Positions 5,783 through 22,194 of a stretch of DNA of 60,743 bases are shown here, piece after piece. Both the position numbers and the translations under genes were made by a program. The notes under the pieces were generated by a model. The model worked only from the letters and a program-made list of their open reading frames with translations. It did no database searches and was not told the origin of the DNA. Positions within the stretch are counted from its first letter, which is position 1. Every line of letters starts with the position of its first letter. Source of the stretch: Candidatus Woesearchaeota archaeon (GTDB lineage Archaea > Nanobdellota > Nanobdellia > Woesearchaeales > JAGVZT01); the NCBI GenBank assembly GCA_018302335.1, contig JAGVZT010000046.1, forward strand, positions 1-60,743, written 5' to 3'.

Positions 5783-7771
5783 TCACTCATGCGGTGCGCA
5801 GGCGGCACTCTTGGTCCCATCGGCACAGCAGCCGCAGTCGTCAGCGTCAGAAGTGTTCGCCCTAGTTTCCGACTTTTCTTCCCCGAAGAGACTCAGGCCA
5901 TTGAGCACCACCGCGACCGTGACCCCGACATCCGCAAAAATCGCCAGTGCGAGATTTGCATGGCCAGCGAGGGCCAAGGCCAGGACAGCCGCCTTGGACA
6001 CGGCCGCAAGGATGATATTGCTCCTGACCGTCCGCACCGTGCGCCGGCCCAGCCGTATGCCGTCGGCGATGAGCTGAAGCCTGTCGTTCATGATGACGAC
6101 ATCCGCGGTCTCGATGGCGGTGTCGGAACCCGCGGCACCCATCGCGATGCCCACGGATGCGCTCGCCAGGGCAGGGGTGTCGTTCACCCCATCGCCGACC
6201 ATGGCGACATGACGGTATCTCTCATGAAGCGCCCGCACCCTCTCGACCTTCTCCTCCGGGAGAAGCGACCCCGTATATTCGTCGATGCCCAGAAGGTCGG
6301 CGACCCTCTTCACTGCCTCCTGATTGTCCCCGGACAGGACCACGGTATGCAGACCCTCGGCCGCTAGGAACCGCACGAGCTCTTTGCTTTCCGGCCTGAT
6401 GTTGTCCGAGAAGGCGATGAGGCCTTTCACCCTCTTCGCGTCCGAGGCGACGATGACTGTTTTCCCCGCCTTCTCGAGACCCATGATTTTTTTCACCACG
6501 TCCTCAGGGACCAGATGCTCCTCTGCGATGAACTCCAGGTTGCCGACGCAGTGGTGGGTATCAAAGCAGACGGCGCACGTCCCCATCAGGCCCTTCCCCT
6601 TGTGGAACGTCACGTTCTCGAACCGGTGAGCAGGGATTCCCCCCTCTGCCGCCTTCCGCCGTATGCCTTTTGCGAGGGGATGCTCGGAATACTCCTCGCT
6701 GCCTGCAACGCATGCCAGGAGCTCTTCCTCGCTGACCCCATTCAAGGGCACGATGTCCGTTATTGCAAAGTCGCCCGTGGTGAGGGTGCGTGTCTTGTCC
6801 AAGGCAACCGCCTTCACGCGGCCCAGCTCCTCGACGTACCTTCCGCCCTTGATGAGCATCCCCTTGCGGGAGGCGTTGCCCATCGCGGAGAAGACTGCCA
6901 CGGGGGTCGAAAGCACCAGTGCGCAGGGGCACGCGATGACGAGCAGGGTCAGCGCGCTCTCCAGCCAGACAGCGAACGGCAGCCCGAGAACAAGCACCGG
7001 AACGGCGACGAGCAGCATCGCCAGGAGCATGACCGCAGGAGTGTAGTACCTGGCGAAGCGCTCGATGAATTGCTGGGCCGTGGACTTGTCCCGCAGGGCC
7101 TGCTCGGTCAATTGCAGAATCTTGGCATAGGTGCTGTCAGATGCGGCCCTGCTCACTCTGATTTCCAGAAAACCGTCTCCGTTCAGCGTCCCGCCGTAGA
7201 CGTCATCTCCGACGGTCTTGTCAGCAGGCATGGATTCTCCTGTGATTGCCGATTCGTCCACGAATGACCTGCCCGCGAGCACCGACCCGTCGAGGGGGAC
7301 CATCTCGCCTGGTTTCACCACGACGACCATCCCGGCCCGCACCTGAGCGATTGCCACCTGCGAATCGCTCCGCTCAACCCTCACCGTTGCGACCTCCGGC
7401 TTGCTCTTCAGGAGGTTCTGGAGACTGCTCCTGCTCTTCTGGTGGCCGAAGCGCTCAAGGTAATTGCCGATGGAGAAGAGGATGACGATGATGGCTGCCT
7501 CCTCGAATTCCCGGAGAAAGAGCGCTCCGATGATTGCCACCGTCATCAGCAGGTTGATATCCGAAAAACGGCGCTGCAGGAGGCTCTTCGCGCCCTTCGC
7601 CAGGGTGTCACGGCCGACCAGAAGGATGATGAAGAGAAAGAGGGGCAATTCGACGACAAGGGGAAGATGCATGGAGAAGAATGACAGTGCCTCGAAGGGC
7701 GCCACGAGAAGAAGGAGCAGGACCAACTTCCTGAATGTTGGCTCCCGGAGCAGTTCTGCATACATGGGCAC
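5783..7771 (-). CDS. P1B-type heavy-metal-translocating ATPase without N-terminal metal-binding domain
   Basis: CPC motif in VIACPCALVLSTPVA, TGES, SEHPLA, MVGDGVNDTPAL; Cys-rich C-terminus DDCGCCADGTKSAACAPHE. The phosphorylation motif reads DKTRTLT. Confidence 0.93.
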   Translation of the reverse strand: MPMYAELLREPTFRKLVLLLLLVAPFEALSFFSMHLPLVVELPLFLFIILLVGRDTLAKGAKSLLQRRFSDINLLMTVAIIGALFLREFEEAAIIVILFSIGNYLERFGHQKSRSSLQNLLKSKPEVATVRVERSDSQVAIAQVRAGMVVVVKPGEMVPLDGSVLAGRSFVDESAITGESMPADKTVGDDVYGGTLNGDGFLEIRVSRAASDSTYAKILQLTEQALRDKSTAQQFIERFARYYTPAVMLLAMLLVAVPVLVLGLPFAVWLESALTLLVIACPCALVLSTPVAVFSAMGNASRKGMLIKGGRYVEELGRVKAVALDKTRTLTTGDFAITDIVPLNGVSEEELLACVAGSEEYSEHPLAKGIRRKAAEGGIPAHRFENVTFHKGKGLMGTCAVCFDTHHCVGNLEFIAEEHLVPEDVVKKIMGLEKAGKTVIVASDAKRVKGLIAFSDNIRPESKELVRFLAAEGLHTVVLSGDNQEAVKRVADLLGIDEYTGSLLPEEKVERVRALHERYRHVAMVGDGVNDTPALASASVGIAMGAAGSDTAIETADVVIMNDRLQLIADGIRLGRRTVRTVRSNIILAAVSKAAVLALALAGHANLALAIFADVGVTVAVVLNGLSLFGEEKSETRANTSDADDCGCCADGTKSAACAPHE

Positions 7772-7860
7772 AGGGGAGGGCGTACAGTTAAGTGTTTTGT
7801 CCTTACGGCATGCAGCGGCGTGGGGAAAACTTCTTAAAGCGCCATCCCCGGGAGAGTGCT

Positions 7861-8145
7861 ATGCCGAACGCGCAGGTCCAGGAGTTCATCGAGCGCGAGA
7901 TGGCCGCAGGAAAGCCACGCGCGAGCATCAAGACCGCGCTGCTCCAGAGAGGCTGGCCCGAGCCGGCCGTGGACCAGGCCCTGAACCTCCTCGGCGCGCA
8001 CCATCAGCCGAAGAAGCACCAGCAGAGGCTCCCCCCGTCGGAGAAGAGCCCGGGGCTGCGCACCACCATCATGCTCGCGCTGCTGCTCGCGCTCATCCTG
8101 GGGGCCGCCCTCTATTACCTGTTCTTCCGGCTGCTCATGCGTTAG
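7861..8145 (+). CDS. Small protein with one C-terminal transmembrane helix
   Basis: MPNAQVQEFIEREMAAGKPRASIKTALLQRGWPEPAVDQAL...TTIMLALLLALILGAALYYLFFRLLMR; ATG at 7861. Confidence 0.7.
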   Translation: MPNAQVQEFIEREMAAGKPRASIKTALLQRGWPEPAVDQALNLLGAHHQPKKHQQRLPPSEKSPGLRTTIMLALLLALILGAALYYLFFRLLMR

Positions 8146-8179
8146 GTTCTGCAGGCTCTGTGGAAACCCTCAGATTCTT

Positions 8180-8243
8180 CGGCCGCACTGCGGAGAATAT
8201 CCGGCCTGCGAGACACCCCGGAACGCATGCGGCAATGCGGCCG
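8180..8243 (+). repeat. Intergenic palindromic element copy B
   Basis: CGGCCGCACTGCGGAGAATATCCGGCCTGCGAGACACCCCGGAACGCATGCGGCAATGCGGCCG (64 bp). Confidence 0.9.
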
Positions 8244-8266
8244 AACGGCGGTGCTGATTCTCGTCG

Positions 8267-9205
8267 TCAGCGGTAGAAGTTGCGCTCCCAGCGGTGCCGC
8301 GCAAGTTTCGAAAGCTCCTCCTTGCTCAGGGAACCCTTCGCCGCAGCGACATTCTCGCTCACGTGCGACGCGGTGCGCATCCCCGGAATCACCGTGCTGA
8401 CCGCAGGATGGGCGAGGCAGAACTGCAGCGACGCCTGCGCAAGGCTCCGCCCGGGCCTCTCCAGCCATCGCAGCGCCTCGACCTTTTTCACGACCTCCGG
8501 CATCCGCTCCGGGGTGAAGTAGTTCCTGCGCCAATCGGAGAAACGCGTCCTCTCGCTGAAGACCCCGGTGAGAGAGCCCTCGTCGAAAGGGCACCGCGCG
8601 AGGATGCCGACGCCGTGCTTCTTCGCAGCGGCGAGCAGCCGGTCGACGGGAGACTGGTCGAAGATGTTGTAGATGACCTGCAGGGCGTCAATCTTGCCGC
8701 TCTCGGCGAGGCGCACCGCGCTCTCCGGCTGATGGTCGTTCACGCTGATTCCGAAGTGGCGCACGATGCCCGCGTCGCGGAGTTCCGCAAAGGCGTCAGA
8801 CCAGCTGCCTTCCAGCCACTGCTCATGCCAGACATGGAGCTGCAGCAGGTCGATGGGTCGCTGGAGATTCTCATGGCTCTTCTTCGCGTAGGAGAGGATA
8901 TGCCTCTTGGGAAAGACTTTCTCCGGGTCGGGATTGCCTGCAGGCCATTGCCAGTCCATCGGGGGGACCTTGGTGGCGACGACCGCATCGTCCGGAAGCT
9001 CCTCCCCGAGGAGGCGCTCGCTGTGCCCGTCGCCGTAGACCCACGCGGTGTCGAAGAAGTTCACCCCGAGCTTCAAAGCGGCGCGGACCGCCTCGCGGCT
9101 CTTCTCGTCGTCGACAGGGCCCCACATCGCGCCACCGATGCCCCATGCGCCGAATCCGATGGAGGAGACTTTCAGGCCGGTCTTTCCCAGGGTGCGATGT
9201 TCCAT
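8267..9205 (-). CDS. Aldo/keto reductase
   Basis: MEHRTLGKTGLKVSSIGFGAWGIGG...FFDTAWVYGDGHSERLLGEEL. Confidence 0.92.
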   Translation of the reverse strand: MEHRTLGKTGLKVSSIGFGAWGIGGAMWGPVDDEKSREAVRAALKLGVNFFDTAWVYGDGHSERLLGEELPDDAVVATKVPPMDWQWPAGNPDPEKVFPKRHILSYAKKSHENLQRPIDLLQLHVWHEQWLEGSWSDAFAELRDAGIVRHFGISVNDHQPESAVRLAESGKIDALQVIYNIFDQSPVDRLLAAAKKHGVGILARCPFDEGSLTGVFSERTRFSDWRRNYFTPERMPEVVKKVEALRWLERPGRSLAQASLQFCLAHPAVSTVIPGMRTASHVSENVAAAKGSLSKEELSKLARHRWERNFYR

Positions 9206-9277
9206 GCCGCGACGTACCGGACGCATTTTATAAGCCTATCCGCAACGCTTTTAAGACCGCCTGGCATCACGCGGGAC

Positions 9278-9637
9278 ATGACCGACCTCGTCGCGTGCCT
9301 CTCCACCGGCAAGGGGACCTGGACGCACGTCTCGCGGCTCATGGCAGCAGCGGAGTGGAGCAAAGTGTTCCTGGTCTGCACGGCATTCGGGAAGGAGCGC
9401 TTCACCTCGGAGCGGCCGTTCGAATTCGTCGTGGTGAACGACGAGGAGCCGCTGCAGCTGATTGCCGAGAGCATCGCGAGCCAGCTCAAGGGCAAGTTCT
9501 CCGACCTCGAGGTCGCGGTGAATCTCATCTCGGGCAGCGGCAAGGAGCACATGGCGGTGCTCAGCGCGCTCCAGAAGGCCGGCGTCGGCTGGCGCCTGGT
9601 GCTGCTCGACGACGCGGGAAAGGTCCAGGAAGCCTGA
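9278..9637 (+). CDS. Small Rossmann-like protein, possibly CARF-like
   Basis: MTDLVACLSTGKGTWTHVSRLMAAAEWSKVFLVCTAFGKERF...LISGSGKEHMAVLSALQKAGVGWRLVLL; ATG 9278 follows TATA-like ttttaag. Confidence 0.6.
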   Translation: MTDLVACLSTGKGTWTHVSRLMAAAEWSKVFLVCTAFGKERFTSERPFEFVVVNDEEPLQLIAESIASQLKGKFSDLEVAVNLISGSGKEHMAVLSALQKAGVGWRLVLLDDAGKVQEA

Positions 9638-9658
9638 CGACAGAATACACCAGGCATC

Positions 9659-9722
9659 CGGCCGGAATGCCGGGTTCCGGACTGCTTCACCGGAATGATT
9701 CGCATTCTCCGCATTGCGGCCG
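9659..9722 (-). repeat. Intergenic palindromic element copy C
   Basis: Minus strand: CGGCCGCAATGCGGAGAATGCGAATCATTCCGGTGAAGCAGTCCGGAACCCGGCATTCCGGCCG (64 bp). Confidence 0.88.
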
Positions 9723-9780
9723 ACTGCCGCTTATGGTAAATTCCGAAAGGAATATAAACTAAATCGAATTATTCTCAGGT

Positions 9781-10335
9781 GTGCTCTACGACCTTCCGGA
9801 CATCAAGCGACTGCGCACCCAGCACGGACTGACCCAGGCGGAGCTGGCGAAGCGCGCAGGGGTCTCCCAGAGTCTCATCGCCAAGGTCGAAGCAGGAAGA
9901 CTCGACCCGACGTTCACCCGCGCGAAGCAGATCTTCTCGGTGCTGGAGAGTCTCGACCAGGAGCGAGAGCAGCTCACGAAGGACGTCATGGTTGCGGAGC
10001 CGCTGAGCTGTCCCCCCGAGCAACCCCTCGGCCAGGCCATCCAGGTGATGAACGAGCGGGGCATCTCCCAGCTTCCGGTGGTCAGCCAGGGCCGCATCGT
10101 CGGGCTGCTCTCCGAAGGCGGCATCCTCGACGCACTCGCCTCAGGAAAACGCAATATCACCTCAGCCCTCGTGCAGGACGTCATGGCCGATGTCCCTCCC
10201 ACGGTCTCCGATACCACGCGGATGAGCGCCGTCGCGCCCCTGCTGCGGCACTTCCCCATCGTCCTCGTCACGAGCAAGGGAGCCCTCCGTGGGGTCATCA
10301 CCAAGGCGGACATGCTCCGGGCGATGTCGCGCTAG
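9781..10335 (+). CDS. XRE-type HTH plus paired CBS domain regulator
   Basis: GTG start; RTQHGLTQAELAKRAGVSQSLIAKVEAGRLDPTF, then two CBS repeats (MNERGISQLPVVSQGRIVGLLSEGGIL...). Confidence 0.88.
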   Translation: MLYDLPDIKRLRTQHGLTQAELAKRAGVSQSLIAKVEAGRLDPTFTRAKQIFSVLESLDQEREQLTKDVMVAEPLSCPPEQPLGQAIQVMNERGISQLPVVSQGRIVGLLSEGGILDALASGKRNITSALVQDVMADVPPTVSDTTRMSAVAPLLRHFPIVLVTSKGALRGVITKADMLRAMSR

Positions 10336-11654: not shown

Positions 11655-12096
11655 ATGAAGCGTCCGCACAAGGCGAAGCCTCGCAGGCAGCAGGACCTCG
11701 CGAGGGAGCGCATCGCCATCCTCCTCGGCCAGGCTGCTGCGCGCTTTTCCGAAGGACCTCGCGAGGGAGCGCATCGCCATCCTCCTCGGCCAGGCTGCTG
11801 CGCGCTTTTCCGAGGAGCCGGAGCTGTCCAATCGCTACGTGCGACTCGCGCGGCGCATCGCCATGCGCGCGAAGGTCCATCTCCTGCCTGCAGAAAAACG
11901 TCGCATCTGCGCGGGCTGCCAGCGCTTCCTGGTGCCGGGAGCGAACTGCCGCACGCGTCTCTCGGGCGCCAAGGTCACGCTCACCTGTCTTGCATGCGGA
12001 AAGGTCTCGCGCTTCCCCTACCTCAGAGAGCAGCGGACGCGGCGGACCGCTTCCGCAGCTCCTCCGCAAGGAACACGGTCAGCGACACCGCAATGA
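11655..12096 (+). pseudogene. rnp4: RNase P protein component 4 (Rpp21/Rnp4), frameshifted by tandem duplication
   Basis: MKRPHKAKPRRQQDLARERIAILLGQAAARFSE (frame from 11655), then EPELSNRYVRLARRIAMRAKVHLLPAEKRRICAGCQRFLVPGANCRTRLSGAKVTLTCLACGKVSRFPYLRE in the frame ending at 12096; removing one 61-bp repeat copy restores a single ORF. Confidence 0.88.
11692..11813. repeat. Exact 61-bp tandem duplication (11692-11752 and 11753-11813)
   Basis: AGGACCTCGCGAGGGAGCGCATCGCCATCCTCCTCGGCCAGGCTGCTGCGCGCTTTTCCGA present twice head-to-tail. Confidence 0.97.
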
Positions 12097-14734
12097 TGAC
12101 AAGCCACTCCGCCCAGGAAAGGGGCACGGTGTGGAGGACCCGCTCGGCGAATGCGACCTGCACCACGAGCACCTGCAGCACGACGCTGAGAGCGAGAGCG
12201 CCGAGAAGGCTGGGGTTCGAGAGCAGCTGTGAGAGCCCGCTCCTCCTATAGGAGCGGCAGTTGAAGGCGTTGACCACCTGGTACATTACCAGGATGGTGA
12301 ACGCGAGGGTCGTCGCCCGGGCGAAGCCTGGCAGCTGCTCCGCCTCCGCATGTCCCATCCCCAGGGTGAACCCCGACCGGCTCAGCGAGTAGAAGAAGAC
12401 GCCCAGGACTCCGACGCCGATGATGAGGCCCGTGGCGAGCCAGACACGGACGTCGGCCCCATTGATGATGCGGGACTTCTTGCTCTTGGGAGGCCGCTCC
12501 ATGATGTCCGGCTCCGCAGGTTCTACGCCAAGAGCGAGCGCGGGGAACATGTCCGTCACCAGGTTGACCCAGAGGATTTGCACCGCGCTCACCGGCGCTA
12601 CGCCAAGAAGGATGCCTCCAACGATGGCGACGACCTCGCCGACATTGCAGGAGATGATGTACCGCACGAATTTCCGGATGTTCTCGTAGATGGTCCTGCC
12701 CTCGCGCACGGCATTCACGATGGACGCGAAGCTGTCGTCCGTGAGGACCATGTCGCTCGCCTCCCGGGAGACGTCGGTGCCCGTGATGCCCATCGCGACC
12801 CCGATGTTCGCCTCCTTGAGCGCAGGTGCGTCGTTCACCCCGTCGCCCGTGACCGCCACGACCTCGCCTTCGGCCTTGAGTACCGACACGACGCGGAGCT
12901 TGTGCTTCGGAAGGGTCCGGGCGAAGATGACATTGCCGGTCAGCAGGCGCCCGAGTTCGTTGTCCGTCAGCTCGTCCAGATGGGAGCCTTCGACCACCGG
13001 TGTCGCGTCGTCCGCGATGCCGAGCTGCTTCGCGATGGCCCGCGCGGTGATGCCGTGGTCGCCGGTGATGATGAAGATGCGGATGCCCGCGCGCTTGCAT
13101 TGCGCAACCGCCTCCTTCACCCCGTCGCGGGGAGGGTCCATCATCCCCACGAGCCCCACGAACACCAGGTCCTTCTCGAGCTGCTCCGCGCTGGGCTGCT
13201 CCTTGAGGTCGGTCCTCCCGGGCAGCTCGCGGTAGGCGCAGGCGAGGACGCGCAAAGCGCCTTCGGCCATCTCCTGGTTGGCGTGCCGGAGCCGGTCCAG
13301 GTCTTTCGGGGAAAGGGTACGTACGCGGCCGAGCTCCCGGACGGAGACGCTGCGCGCGAGCACCGCATCGGGCGCGCCTTTCAGGTAGAGCAGACGCCTG
13401 CCTCCCACCTCGTGGATGGTGGACATGAGCTTCCTCTCGGAGTCGAACGGCAGCTCCGCGAGCCTCGGATACTCCTTTTCCAGCGCCTCCCGCGAGAGGC
13501 CTGCCTTGCGGCCGAGCACGATGAGCGCTCCCTCGGTTGGGTCGCCGATGATTCCCCATCCTTTCTCCCCCTGCCGGAGCTGGGCGTTGTTGCAGAGGGT
13601 GGCGATGCGGACCATCAGCCCGAGCTCCTCTGCGTCGCCGTCGATCTTCCCCTCTGGGCTGTACCCTACGCCGGTGACGCGCAGGCCCTTTCCGTCGACG
13701 TAGAGCTGCTGGCAGGTCATCTCGTTCCTCGTGAGCGTGCCGGTCTTGTCGCTGCAAATGACGGTCGTGCTGCCGAGGGTCTCCACCGAGGTGAGCTTCC
13801 TGATGACGGTGTTGACCTTCACCATCTTGCGCACCCCGCGCGCGAGGGTGATGGTCATGATGGCGGGCAGGCCTTCCGGCACCGCGGCGACCGCCACTGC
13901 GACGGCGAAGATGACGCTCTGGAGGAACGGCTCCCTGCGCAGCGCGTTCAGGAGGAGGATGAGGACGCAGACGCCGAGAACCACCTTGCCGATGAACTTC
14001 GCCACCTCATCGAGCTCCCGCTGCAGGGGGGAAGCCTCCTCGTGCACGCTCTGGGTGAGGGAGGCGATGTTGCCGAACTGGCTGGACATCCCGGTCTCGG
14101 TGACCACCATGCGGCCGCGGCCATGGGACACCACCGTGCCCATGAAGCACATGTTGATGCGGTCCGCGACGTTGACCTGCACCTGGCTGAGCGCCTCGGT
14201 GCGCTTCCCCACGGGAAGCGACTCACCCGTGAGCGCAGCCTCGGCAGCCTTGAGGCTTGCGACCTCCAGCAGCCTGCCGTCCGCCGGGACGATGTCCCCC
14301 TCCTCCAGCAGCACGACGTCACCGGGCACGAGCTCCCGGGCGTGAATCTCGCGGAGCTCGTTGGAGCGCATCACGCGCGCCTTCTGGGAGAGCATCCCCT
14401 TCAGGGCCTCGACGTCCTTGGACGCCTTGAATTCCTGGTAGAATCCGACCGCGGCGTTCACGAGCACGATGGCGAAGATGAACAGCGCCTCGTAGACCTC
14501 CTCCATGGACTCGTGGAAGATGAGGGAGATGATGCCGGCGAAGATGAGAATCAGGACCATGAGGTCCTTGAACTGGGCGAGCAGCATCTGCAACGGAGTC
14601 TCGCCGACGGCGACGACCAGCTCATTCGGCCCGTACTGCTCCAGGCGCTGGGCCGCCTCCCCCTCGCTCAGCCCGGAGCGGGAAGAGCCGAGTCCCTTCA
14701 GGACTTCTTCCGGGGAAGTGTCGTAGTATGCCAT
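12023..14734 (-). CDS. Calcium-type P2-ATPase (SERCA/PMCA-like cation transporter)
   Basis: AVAAVPEGLPAIMTITLARGVRKM, ICSDKTGTLTRNEM, VAVTGDGVNDAPALK. Confidence 0.93.
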   Translation of the reverse strand: MAYYDTSPEEVLKGLGSSRSGLSEGEAAQRLEQYGPNELVVAVGETPLQMLLAQFKDLMVLILIFAGIISLIFHESMEEVYEALFIFAIVLVNAAVGFYQEFKASKDVEALKGMLSQKARVMRSNELREIHARELVPGDVVLLEEGDIVPADGRLLEVASLKAAEAALTGESLPVGKRTEALSQVQVNVADRINMCFMGTVVSHGRGRMVVTETGMSSQFGNIASLTQSVHEEASPLQRELDEVAKFIGKVVLGVCVLILLLNALRREPFLQSVIFAVAVAVAAVPEGLPAIMTITLARGVRKMVKVNTVIRKLTSVETLGSTTVICSDKTGTLTRNEMTCQQLYVDGKGLRVTGVGYSPEGKIDGDAEELGLMVRIATLCNNAQLRQGEKGWGIIGDPTEGALIVLGRKAGLSREALEKEYPRLAELPFDSERKLMSTIHEVGGRRLLYLKGAPDAVLARSVSVRELGRVRTLSPKDLDRLRHANQEMAEGALRVLACAYRELPGRTDLKEQPSAEQLEKDLVFVGLVGMMDPPRDGVKEAVAQCKRAGIRIFIITGDHGITARAIAKQLGIADDATPVVEGSHLDELTDNELGRLLTGNVIFARTLPKHKLRVVSVLKAEGEVVAVTGDGVNDAPALKEANIGVAMGITGTDVSREASDMVLTDDSFASIVNAVREGRTIYENIRKFVRYIISCNVGEVVAIVGGILLGVAPVSAVQILWVNLVTDMFPALALGVEPAEPDIMERPPKSKKSRIINGADVRVWLATGLIIGVGVLGVFFYSLSRSGFTLGMGHAEAEQLPGFARATTLAFTILVMYQVVNAFNCRSYRRSGLSQLLSNPSLLGALALSVVLQVLVVQVAFAERVLHTVPLSWAEWLVIIAVSLTVFLAEELRKRSAASAAL

Positions 14735-20095: not shown

Positions 20096-20192
20096 GCCCT
20101 GGTGGTGTAGCCTGGAACTCCTCTCCGAGGAGCAGCAGCTATCATGAAGCCCTGTCGAGGCTTCGACCCGGGTTCAAATCCCGGCCAGGGCG
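20096..20192 (+). tRNA. tRNA-Asp(GTC) with 22-nt insert in the D-loop (20117-20138)
   Basis: Acceptor GCCCTGG/CCAGGGC, anticodon arm AAGCC-CTGTCGA-GGCTT, T arm CCGGG-TTCAAAT-CCCGG. Removing ACTCCTCTCCGAGGAGCAGCAG gives a 75-nt canonical tRNA. Confidence 0.9.
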
Positions 20193-20241: not shown

Positions 20242-20346
20242 GGGCCGGTAGCTCAACCTGGTAGAGCACCTGACTTTTAATCAGGTGGTTGCGGGTTCGA
20301 ACCCGCCGCCCAGAGATGAGCGGCGGAGAACATCCCGTCCGGCCCA
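20242..20346 (+). tRNA. tRNA-Lys(TTT) with 31-nt insert in the T-loop (about 20301-20331)
   Basis: Acceptor GGGCCGG pairs with CCGGCCC at 20339-20345; anticodon arm CCTGA-CTTTTAA-TCAGG; T-stem GCGGG pairs with CCCGT at 20334-20338; removing 31 nt leaves a 74-nt tRNA. Confidence 0.9.
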
Positions 20347-20348
20347 TA

Positions 20349-20720
20349 ATGGTCAGCGGTGGAAGCATGGCGGCAAAGAAAATCAAGGCGGCGAAAAAGG
20401 CTCCACGGCCTGCTCGGAAGGCGGTCACGGTGAAGAAGGGCGTGCCCAGGGCGCGCAGGCCGATGCTTCCTCAGATCGACATCCGTCCGCACCAGCTCGT
20501 GCCCACGCACGAGAAGGTCGCGGAGAAGGAGCGTACCGCAATCCTTGAGCGCCTGTTCGCTTCGCTCAAGGAGGTGCCCCGCATCTCCATCAAGGATCCC
20601 GGCATCCGCCACCTCGAGCCCAAGCTGGGCGACCTGATTCGCATCTCCCGAAAAAGCCCCACTGCGGGCCGCACGGTCTATTACAGGGTGGTAAGCCAAG
20701 GGACGGTGAGCAATGTATAA
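20349..20720 (+). CDS. rpoH: RNA polymerase subunit H (RpoH/Rpb5); start 20349 or 20367
   Basis: LPQIDIRPHQLVPTHEKVAEKERTAILERL...IRISRKSPTAGRTVYYRVVS. Confidence 0.95.
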   Translation: MVSGGSMAAKKIKAAKKAPRPARKAVTVKKGVPRARRPMLPQIDIRPHQLVPTHEKVAEKERTAILERLFASLKEVPRISIKDPGIRHLEPKLGDLIRISRKSPTAGRTVYYRVVSQGTVSNV

Positions 20721-22194
20721 GCCCAATATCCTGGTGCAGAAATATTTCGAGCATGAGATGTTCACCCGCTCGGACATCGAGTCCTTCAACACCTTCGTCG
20801 ACGTCGAGCTTCCGCGCATCATCGAGGAGAACCGGGAGATAGAGCCCACCATCATCCCGCACAACATCGACGAGTTCAAGATACGCTTCGACAAGATATG
20901 GATACAGAAGCCCGAGATCATCGAGGCCGACGGCTCCCAGCGCAAGATTTACCCCACCGAGGCCAGGCTCCGGGAGATCACCTACGCTGCCCCGGTATTC
21001 ATCCAGGTCAGTTCCCACATCAACGGAGCCCAGCGCGAGTCCTTCACCACCCCTATTTGCAACCTGCCCATCATGCTCAAGTCGAAATACTGCCACCTCT
21101 ATGGCCTGAGCGCCGAGGAGCTTGCAGGCAAGTGGGAGGACCCCGACGATCCCGGCGGATACTTCATCATCAACGGCAGCGAGAAGGTCCTCGTGAAGAT
21201 TGAGGACCTCGCGGCCAACAAGCTTCTGGTCGCGAAGCAGAGGAGCGGGCCCGCGGGATACGAGGGCAAGCTCTTCTCCGAGCGCGGCTCGTACAAGATT
21301 CCCCACACCCTGGAGCTGATGAAGGACGGCATCCTCTACGTCACGTTCACGAGGATAAAGCGCGTTCCGCTCATTGTGGTCATCAAGGCGCTCGGCATCA
21401 CCAAGGACGAGGACATCATGAAGCTCATCGGCAACGAGCATGTCTTCGACCAGGTCTACCTGAACCTCTACGAGTTCACGGCAATCAAGAGCGCCGATGA
21501 CGCGCTGGACTTCATCGCCAAGAAGAGCGGCATCTCCCAGTCGCGCGAGATACGCGTCGAGCGCATCCGGGGCATCCTCGACAAGTACCTGCTGCCCCAC
21601 CTCGGCACCTCGCCCCAGGAGCGGGCGGTGAAGGCGTACAACCTCTGCAAGCTGATGAAGCGGTATCTCCTCGTGGTCGCGGGAGTGCTTCCGGAGGACG
21701 ACAAGGACCACCTGATGAACAAGCGCGTGAAGATGTCCGGCGACCTGCTCGCGGACCTCTTCAGGGTGAACCTCAAGCTGCTCATCGGGGATGTCCTGTA
21801 CAACTTCCAGCGGATAGTGAAGCGCGGCAAGTTCCCGAGCATCAAGGTCATCATCCGGGAGAAGCTGCTCACCTCCCACATCCACAGCTCCATGGCCACC
21901 GGGTCGTGGGTGGGGGGAAGGAAGGGAGTCAGCCAGCGCATCCAGCGGCTGAACTACCTGGAGATGCTTTCGCACCTTCAGCGCGTGGTGTCCCCGCTGA
22001 GCGCGACCCAGGAGAACTTCCAGGCGAGAGAGCTGCACCCCACGCAGCTCGGGAGGCTCTGCCCCATCGAGACCCCTGAGGGAACGAACATCGGGCTGAA
22101 GAAGAATCTCGCGCTGCTCGCCAGCGTGACGCAGGATTACGCGGAGGAGAGAGCCCTTGCCTCGCTTCGCGAGCTCGGGCTGAAGCAGGTCTGA
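20713..22194 (+). CDS. rpoB2: RNA polymerase subunit B''
   Basis: FTRSDIESFNTFVDVELPRIIEENREIEPTIIP...LHPTQLGRLCPIETPEGTNIGLKKNLAL. Confidence 0.97.
   Translation: MYKPNILVQKYFEHEMFTRSDIESFNTFVDVELPRIIEENREIEPTIIPHNIDEFKIRFDKIWIQKPEIIEADGSQRKIYPTEARLREITYAAPVFIQVSSHINGAQRESFTTPICNLPIMLKSKYCHLYGLSAEELAGKWEDPDDPGGYFIINGSEKVLVKIEDLAANKLLVAKQRSGPAGYEGKLFSERGSYKIPHTLELMKDGILYVTFTRIKRVPLIVVIKALGITKDEDIMKLIGNEHVFDQVYLNLYEFTAIKSADDALDFIAKKSGISQSREIRVERIRGILDKYLLPHLGTSPQERAVKAYNLCKLMKRYLLVVAGVLPEDDKDHLMNKRVKMSGDLLADLFRVNLKLLIGDVLYNFQRIVKRGKFPSIKVIIREKLLTSHIHSSMATGSWVGGRKGVSQRIQRLNYLEMLSHLQRVVSPLSATQENFQARELHPTQLGRLCPIETPEGTNIGLKKNLALLASVTQDYAEERALASLRELGLKQV

Follow-up and report, generated by a model that had tools for sequence, protein, structure and literature searches.

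A probable T-loop intron at position 59/60 of tRNA-Lys(UUU) in a Woesearchaeales archaeon and its relatives

Introduction

Position 59/60 is already on the list of non-canonical archaeal tRNA intron sites (PMC4090602), and the reviews of such introns stress Crenarchaeota, Thaumarchaeota and N. equitans. In Thermoproteales, tRNAs carry up to three introns each (PMC4033280), and the splicing endonuclease EndA is an (alpha-beta)2 enzyme with a crenarchaea-specific loop. EndA of the alpha4 and alpha2 types is held to be restricted to canonical bulge-helix-bulge (BHB) introns, non-canonical ones requiring specific loops (PMC4090602, PMC4033280). Among DPANN lineages, N. equitans has split tRNAs and an (alpha-beta)2 EndA, and Nanoarchaeon Nst1 has a catalytic EndA subunit with no beta gene identified and introns reported in two tRNAs only (PMC3655853). 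tRNAscan-SE 2.0 includes models of non-canonical introns, for which Crenarchaeota, Euryarchaeota and Thaumarchaeota served as the training set (PMC8450103), and our literature search, which covered few subscription journals, found no paper on non-canonical tRNA introns in Woesearchaeota/DPANN.

We analysed a window of 60,743 nucleotides, contig JAGVZT010000046.1 (C30) of a Candidatus Woesearchaeota assembly (GCA_018302335.1; 1.56 Mb, 75 contigs, 93% complete). Its tRNA-Lys(UUU) gene contains a 31-nt insert that is almost certainly an archaeal 59/60 tRNA intron, to judge from sequence comparison; it would be excised by a single EndA, with the exons joined by RtcB. This intron is like the known ones in its site, its BHB motif and its expected removal by EndA, but it belongs to a pattern found in Woesearchaeales and in other orders of the class. 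The site itself is already known; what is less expected is its recurrence across a lineage with an apparently single-gene EndA.

The tRNA-Lys gene and its mis-annotation

The precursor gene occupies 20242-20346 of the forward strand (105 nt including the discriminator A20346) and stands in the order tRNA-Asp, tRNA-Lys, rpoH, rpoB, which is common to several relatives. The gene for RNA polymerase subunit H (Rpb5-like; 20367-20720, forward strand, start codon as predicted) matches PF01191 (E 9.7e-21), and that for subunit B'' (20713-22194, forward strand) matches PF04563, PF04561 and PF04565. RpoB'' served as the query for finding relatives with matching gene order, and nearly all of those found carry Woesearchaeota or Nanoarchaeota labels, which places the source among DPANN archaea, most likely in the Woesearchaeales. 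One locus, L054 (PBQF01000005.1), is titled 'Parcubacteria group bacterium'; it is probably mislabelled or misbinned, since its RpoB'' is Woesearchaeota-like and its tRNA-Asp bears introns.

The acceptor strand GGGCCGG (20242-20248) pairs perfectly with CCGGCCC (20339-20345), the T-stem strand GCGGG (20291-20295) pairs with CCCGT (20334-20338), and both helices close only when about 31 nt are taken out of the T-loop. The insert carries a hairpin (20303-20326) with a 10-nt loop and a 7-bp stem, CCGCCGC (20303-20309) with GCGGCGG (20320-20326), in which all seven pairs form; shuffling the 31-nt intron 5000 times produced a stem of at least 7 bp in just 24 cases. The fold of the whole precursor (z = -4.4) and that of the T-arm plus intron (z = -4.1) were equalled in stability by none of 200 shuffles. 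The sequence-only reading of this DNA had announced the acceptor partner, the T-stem partner and the hairpin, and all three lie exactly where it placed them.

On the BHB register and the intronless orthologues, the 5' exon (20242-20301) corresponds to tRNA positions 1-59, and the 3' exon (20333-20346) comprises T60, the T-stem strand CCCGT, the acceptor strand CCGGCCC and the discriminator A. The latter exon, CCCGTCCGGCCC, is identical in the intronless orthologues. The spliced product of 74 nt matches these orthologues in T-arm and acceptor, and its T-loop is a normal one of 7 nt, UUCGAAU. A permuted gene, which had been proposed as something to look for, is not what the locus holds: across 20242-20346 the two exons are adjacent and in normal order, with neither a permuted nor a split arrangement. 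The locus thus differs from the split tRNAs of N. equitans in being a contiguous gene with a cis intron.

Ordinary annotation mis-ends the gene, as had been predicted: ARAGORN places its end at 20313 and Rfam at 20312. Both calls are above threshold, and an ordinary intronless tRNA-Lys ending there, with the downstream CCGGCCC a coincidence, would have a closable T-stem. The programs score this mis-ended tRNA because CCCGC at the start of the insert can close the T-stem as well. We reject a mature tRNA ending at 20313 because most of its acceptor stem would be unpaired, the 3' strand CGCCCAG being no partner for GGGCCGG. A coincidence would also have to account for the perfect downstream partner, for intronless orthologues that end precisely in the 3' exon sequence, and for the keeping of this exon behind 28 distinct inserts at one site, and we give it practically no chance.

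Bulge-helix-bulge register

The best register for the intron (20302-20332, 31 nt) is a 3-4-3 BHB with 3-nt bulges and a 4-position central helix containing one G.A mismatch. The T-stem forms the outer helix; in the central helix, T54 T55 C56 G57 (20296-20299) faces AGAA (20327-20330) with three Watson-Crick pairs and the G.A; the bulges are A58, A59 and C (20300-20302) on the 5' side and C, A and T60 (20331-20333) on the 3' side. EndA cuts its substrates after the second nucleotide of each bulge. By that rule the geometry predicts cuts at 20301/20302 and 20332/20333, which remove 20302-20332, at position 59/60. Removal of 20301-20331 would give the same mature tRNA, A being the base at both 20301 and 20332.

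Two other registers were considered. Pairing of GTTC with GAAC, the BHB-like junction of the sequence-only reading, was rejected as the main register: it uses G53 of the T-stem (20295) and would leave a 5-nt T-loop. That proposal was off by one position, but intronless orthologues, many unrelated introns at the same site and compensatory changes in the central helix strongly favour its BHB intron. An intron at 20303-20333, with TTCGAAC as the mature T-loop, is allowed by the sequence and misfits the BHB register common to the relatives. The minimum-energy fold leaves the central helix of the window's gene open (-19.5 kcal/mol with the BHB versus -21.4 without); as the energy model does not form this helix, the case for the BHB depends on comparison.

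The transcript would fold with the T-stem as outer helix and T54-G57 paired to the 3' end of the intron, followed by the intron hairpin, so that a 3-4-3 BHB would be formed within the T-arm. A single endonuclease of the EndA family would then cut both bulges and free 20302-20332, and RtcB would ligate the exons into tRNA-Lys(UUU) with the T-loop given above. We infer transcription, cleavage and ligation, as well as the oligomeric state of EndA, from sequence.

Comparison of tRNA-Lys among relatives

We searched 198 genomes of the order with an anticodon-arm pattern and 384 genomes of the class with a gapped T-arm pattern; the resulting set of tRNA-Lys genes is shaped by these patterns, and its counts are not intron frequencies. 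Related genomes hold both intronless and intron-bearing tRNA-Lys(UUU) genes. Most intronless orthologues read TTCRAATCYCGTCCGGCCC, and removal of the insert from the window's gene gives exactly GCGGGTTCGAATCCCGTCCGGCCC, as in the intronless relatives L104 and L115. We found 28 distinct tRNA-Lys introns, 13-70 nt long, every one of them between A59 and T60. Beyond the BHB their sequences vary freely among relatives.

The central helix does not share this freedom. Standard pairs are present in 28/28, 28/28, 28/28 and 21/28 introns at positions 54, 55, 56 and 57, a total of 105 of 112 pairs. Shuffles averaged 52.5 (sd 4.9), and in 5000 of them this total was never attained; sliding the register by 1-3 positions lowers the total to 46-67. 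Position 57 covaries with its partner, A57 facing U in 10 of 11 introns; of the 17 introns with G57, 7 have C and 4 have U opposite it (Fisher p 0.0013, uncorrected for phylogeny). A second count, on 22 tRNA-Lys rows and a tRNA-Ala intron (23 rows), had 97.1% of cells paired, versus 56.5% in the next best slide, with 17 cells changed on both sides, and its covariation score was matched by 0 of 500 shuffles.

The tRNA-Lys genes of L072, L074, L083, L084 and L093 have a D-loop insert in addition to the T-loop intron, and that of L050 has a D-loop insert in its place. Among further matches to the patterns, the T-arm-like ones at C8:5704, C57:13610, C63:7106 and C67:10339 have no tRNA context by eye and were set aside, as were T-loop-intron matches on C4, C11 and C66, which are apparently due to chance or to overlap with the ends of ordinary tRNAs.

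Is the gene needed for reading AAA? Our tRNA census combined pattern searches with Rfam hits and ARAGORN runs on loci, and found no second tRNA-Lys(UUU) in the 93%-complete genome. The one other tRNA-Lys found is an intronless gene with anticodon CUU (L001). A tRNA-Lys with anticodon CUU is not expected to decode AAA, and the tRNA-Lys(UUU) gene should therefore be needed, unless another copy sits in the missing 7% or so of the genome. That same gap is what would allow the locus to be a pseudogene that a random insertion disrupted, a hidden gene then reading the AAA codons of lysine. Against this, the census yielded the CUU gene as the sole other candidate, the exons are intact and perfectly paired, and in related genomes inserts persist at this site with their pairing conserved; a pseudogene is accordingly very improbable.

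Splicing machinery

The genome of the window has one detectable EndA reading frame (191 aa; contig C1 of G000, about 11731-12270, minus strand), with the N- and C-terminal domains PF02778 and PF01974. Of 32 genomes, 30 had one gene over the cut-off and two, both drafts, had none, and a profile search at E<=10 gave no convincing second EndA-type gene in 13 genomes, including assemblies of 4 and 8 contigs. The sequence-only reading had pointed to a heterodimeric endonuclease; the genome and its relatives offer instead one alpha-type gene and, with the Pfam models and the EndA profile, no detectable beta, although a short beta could escape these searches. Here again a comparison with known enzymes can be made. 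The lack of a detected beta sets this EndA apart from that of N. equitans, a related DPANN lineage which nevertheless provides the closest solved EndA by profile (PDB 3iey), and is a feature shared with Nst1, from which the present lineage differs by its many non-canonical introns. It also differs from the Thermoproteales enzyme in being a single-gene EndA that lacks the insertion carried by S. tokodaii EndA (2cv8) between GKP and LSL, where the alignment probably places the crenarchaeal loop. In broad-specificity EndA the CSL/ASL loop bears a Lys and is an insertion of the N-terminal domain; for the shorter ARMAN version, exclusion by sequence alone is less secure.

Across 12 sequences no variation is seen in the putative catalytic residues Y127, H137 and K168 or in the putative bulge contacts R161 and W188, roles that come from alignment, and W188 aligns with W384 of the ARMAN-2 EndA. 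The equivalent of W384 is Trp in epsilon2 and (alpha-beta)2 enzymes and Arg in alpha4 and alpha'2 ones (PMC12397907, PMC6379350). The bulge-recognition pair is thus Arg and Trp rather than the two Arg of the alpha4 type, while the organisation is that of alpha4, one gene with two domains and no beta within the limited sensitivity for a very short one.

These mixed features leave some room for another remover. The intron may be real and yet be cut by an (alpha-beta)2 enzyme like that of N. equitans, its beta having been missed, an alternative that concerns the enzyme alone. Among solved structures the profile indeed matches N. equitans alpha best (3iey_A, E 7e-45), the Trp at W188 is typical of (alpha-beta)2 as well as epsilon2 enzymes, and the short Pyrobaculum beta falls below the threshold of the EndA profile (1e-3). 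The near-uniform finding of one EndA gene argues against it, as does the recovery by the same profile of the N. equitans beta NEQ261 (3iey_B, E 5e-17), which suggests that a beta of that kind would probably have been visible. We consider such an (alpha-beta)2 enzyme unlikely.

For the single EndA, we hold the chances to be even that this order-level DPANN lineage removes up to three introns per tRNA, in the D-, anticodon and T-loops, with a one-gene enzyme that resembles a homotetramer, lacks the crenarchaeal loop and carries the broad-specificity Trp. If true, this would contradict the rule that ties non-canonical tRNA introns to (alpha-beta)2, epsilon2 or CSL/ASL-bearing enzymes, and unless a short beta was missed the lineage appears to break that rule of EndA specificity. 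The case bears on the proposed co-evolution of splicing-enzyme type with intron position. One speculative reconciliation is that the T-stem, acting as outer helix, lets a T-loop intron offer a near-strict BHB, so that a one-gene enzyme might cut such an intron even with no special loops.

A gene for RtcB is present in the same genome. Its reading frame of 988 aa (L159; contig C27 of G000, 7397-10207, minus strand) has a family match interrupted by about 1.46 kb of reading frame, the arrangement expected for an intein, of which it is a candidate.

Introns in other tRNAs

The adjoining tRNA had been said to bear a different insert, and it does. The tRNA-Asp(GUC) precursor gene (20096-20192, forward strand), unreported by ARAGORN and Rfam, contains a 22-nt D-loop intron, predicted at 20117-20138 on the forward strand, with a hairpin CTCCTC/GAGGAG, three of four central pairs in CCTG/CAGC, and bulges at 20115-20117 and 20137-20139. 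We read this intron from the sequence and compared it with the intronless tRNA-Asp of L114. In the fetched loci, 32 of 39 tRNA-Asp genes have at least one intron. Multi-intron genes, which had been suggested as something to search for in this genome, occur in relatives: in L045, L053 and L078 the tRNA-Asp has three, in the D-loop, anticodon loop and T-loop, the same number that Thermoproteales tRNAs reach. The 26 T-loop introns of tRNA-Asp have 98 of 104 central-helix pairs, versus a shuffle mean of 45.3 and a maximum of 65.

The window's genome also has a tRNA-Ala(UGC) in its rRNA operon, after the 3' end of the 16S rRNA, with a 28-nt 59/60 intron and the pair A57:U (L158; contig C17 of G000, about 704-807); Rfam ends it early, at 761. 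Woesearchaeales genes for tRNA-Lys, tRNA-Asp and tRNA-Ala are thus missed or mis-ended by common tools, and as T-loop and D-loop introns hide tRNAs, the tRNA sets of reduced genomes can be under-counted.

In the window's genome ARAGORN also places introns in the anticodon loops of tRNA-Met, Thr, Tyr, Cys and Ser. Its call at L033 (contig C61 of G000, 8617-8711) is a tRNA-Ala(TGC) whose intron has 5 nt; by its anticodon stem this gene fits a tRNA-Arg(GCG) with a longer intron following position 37.
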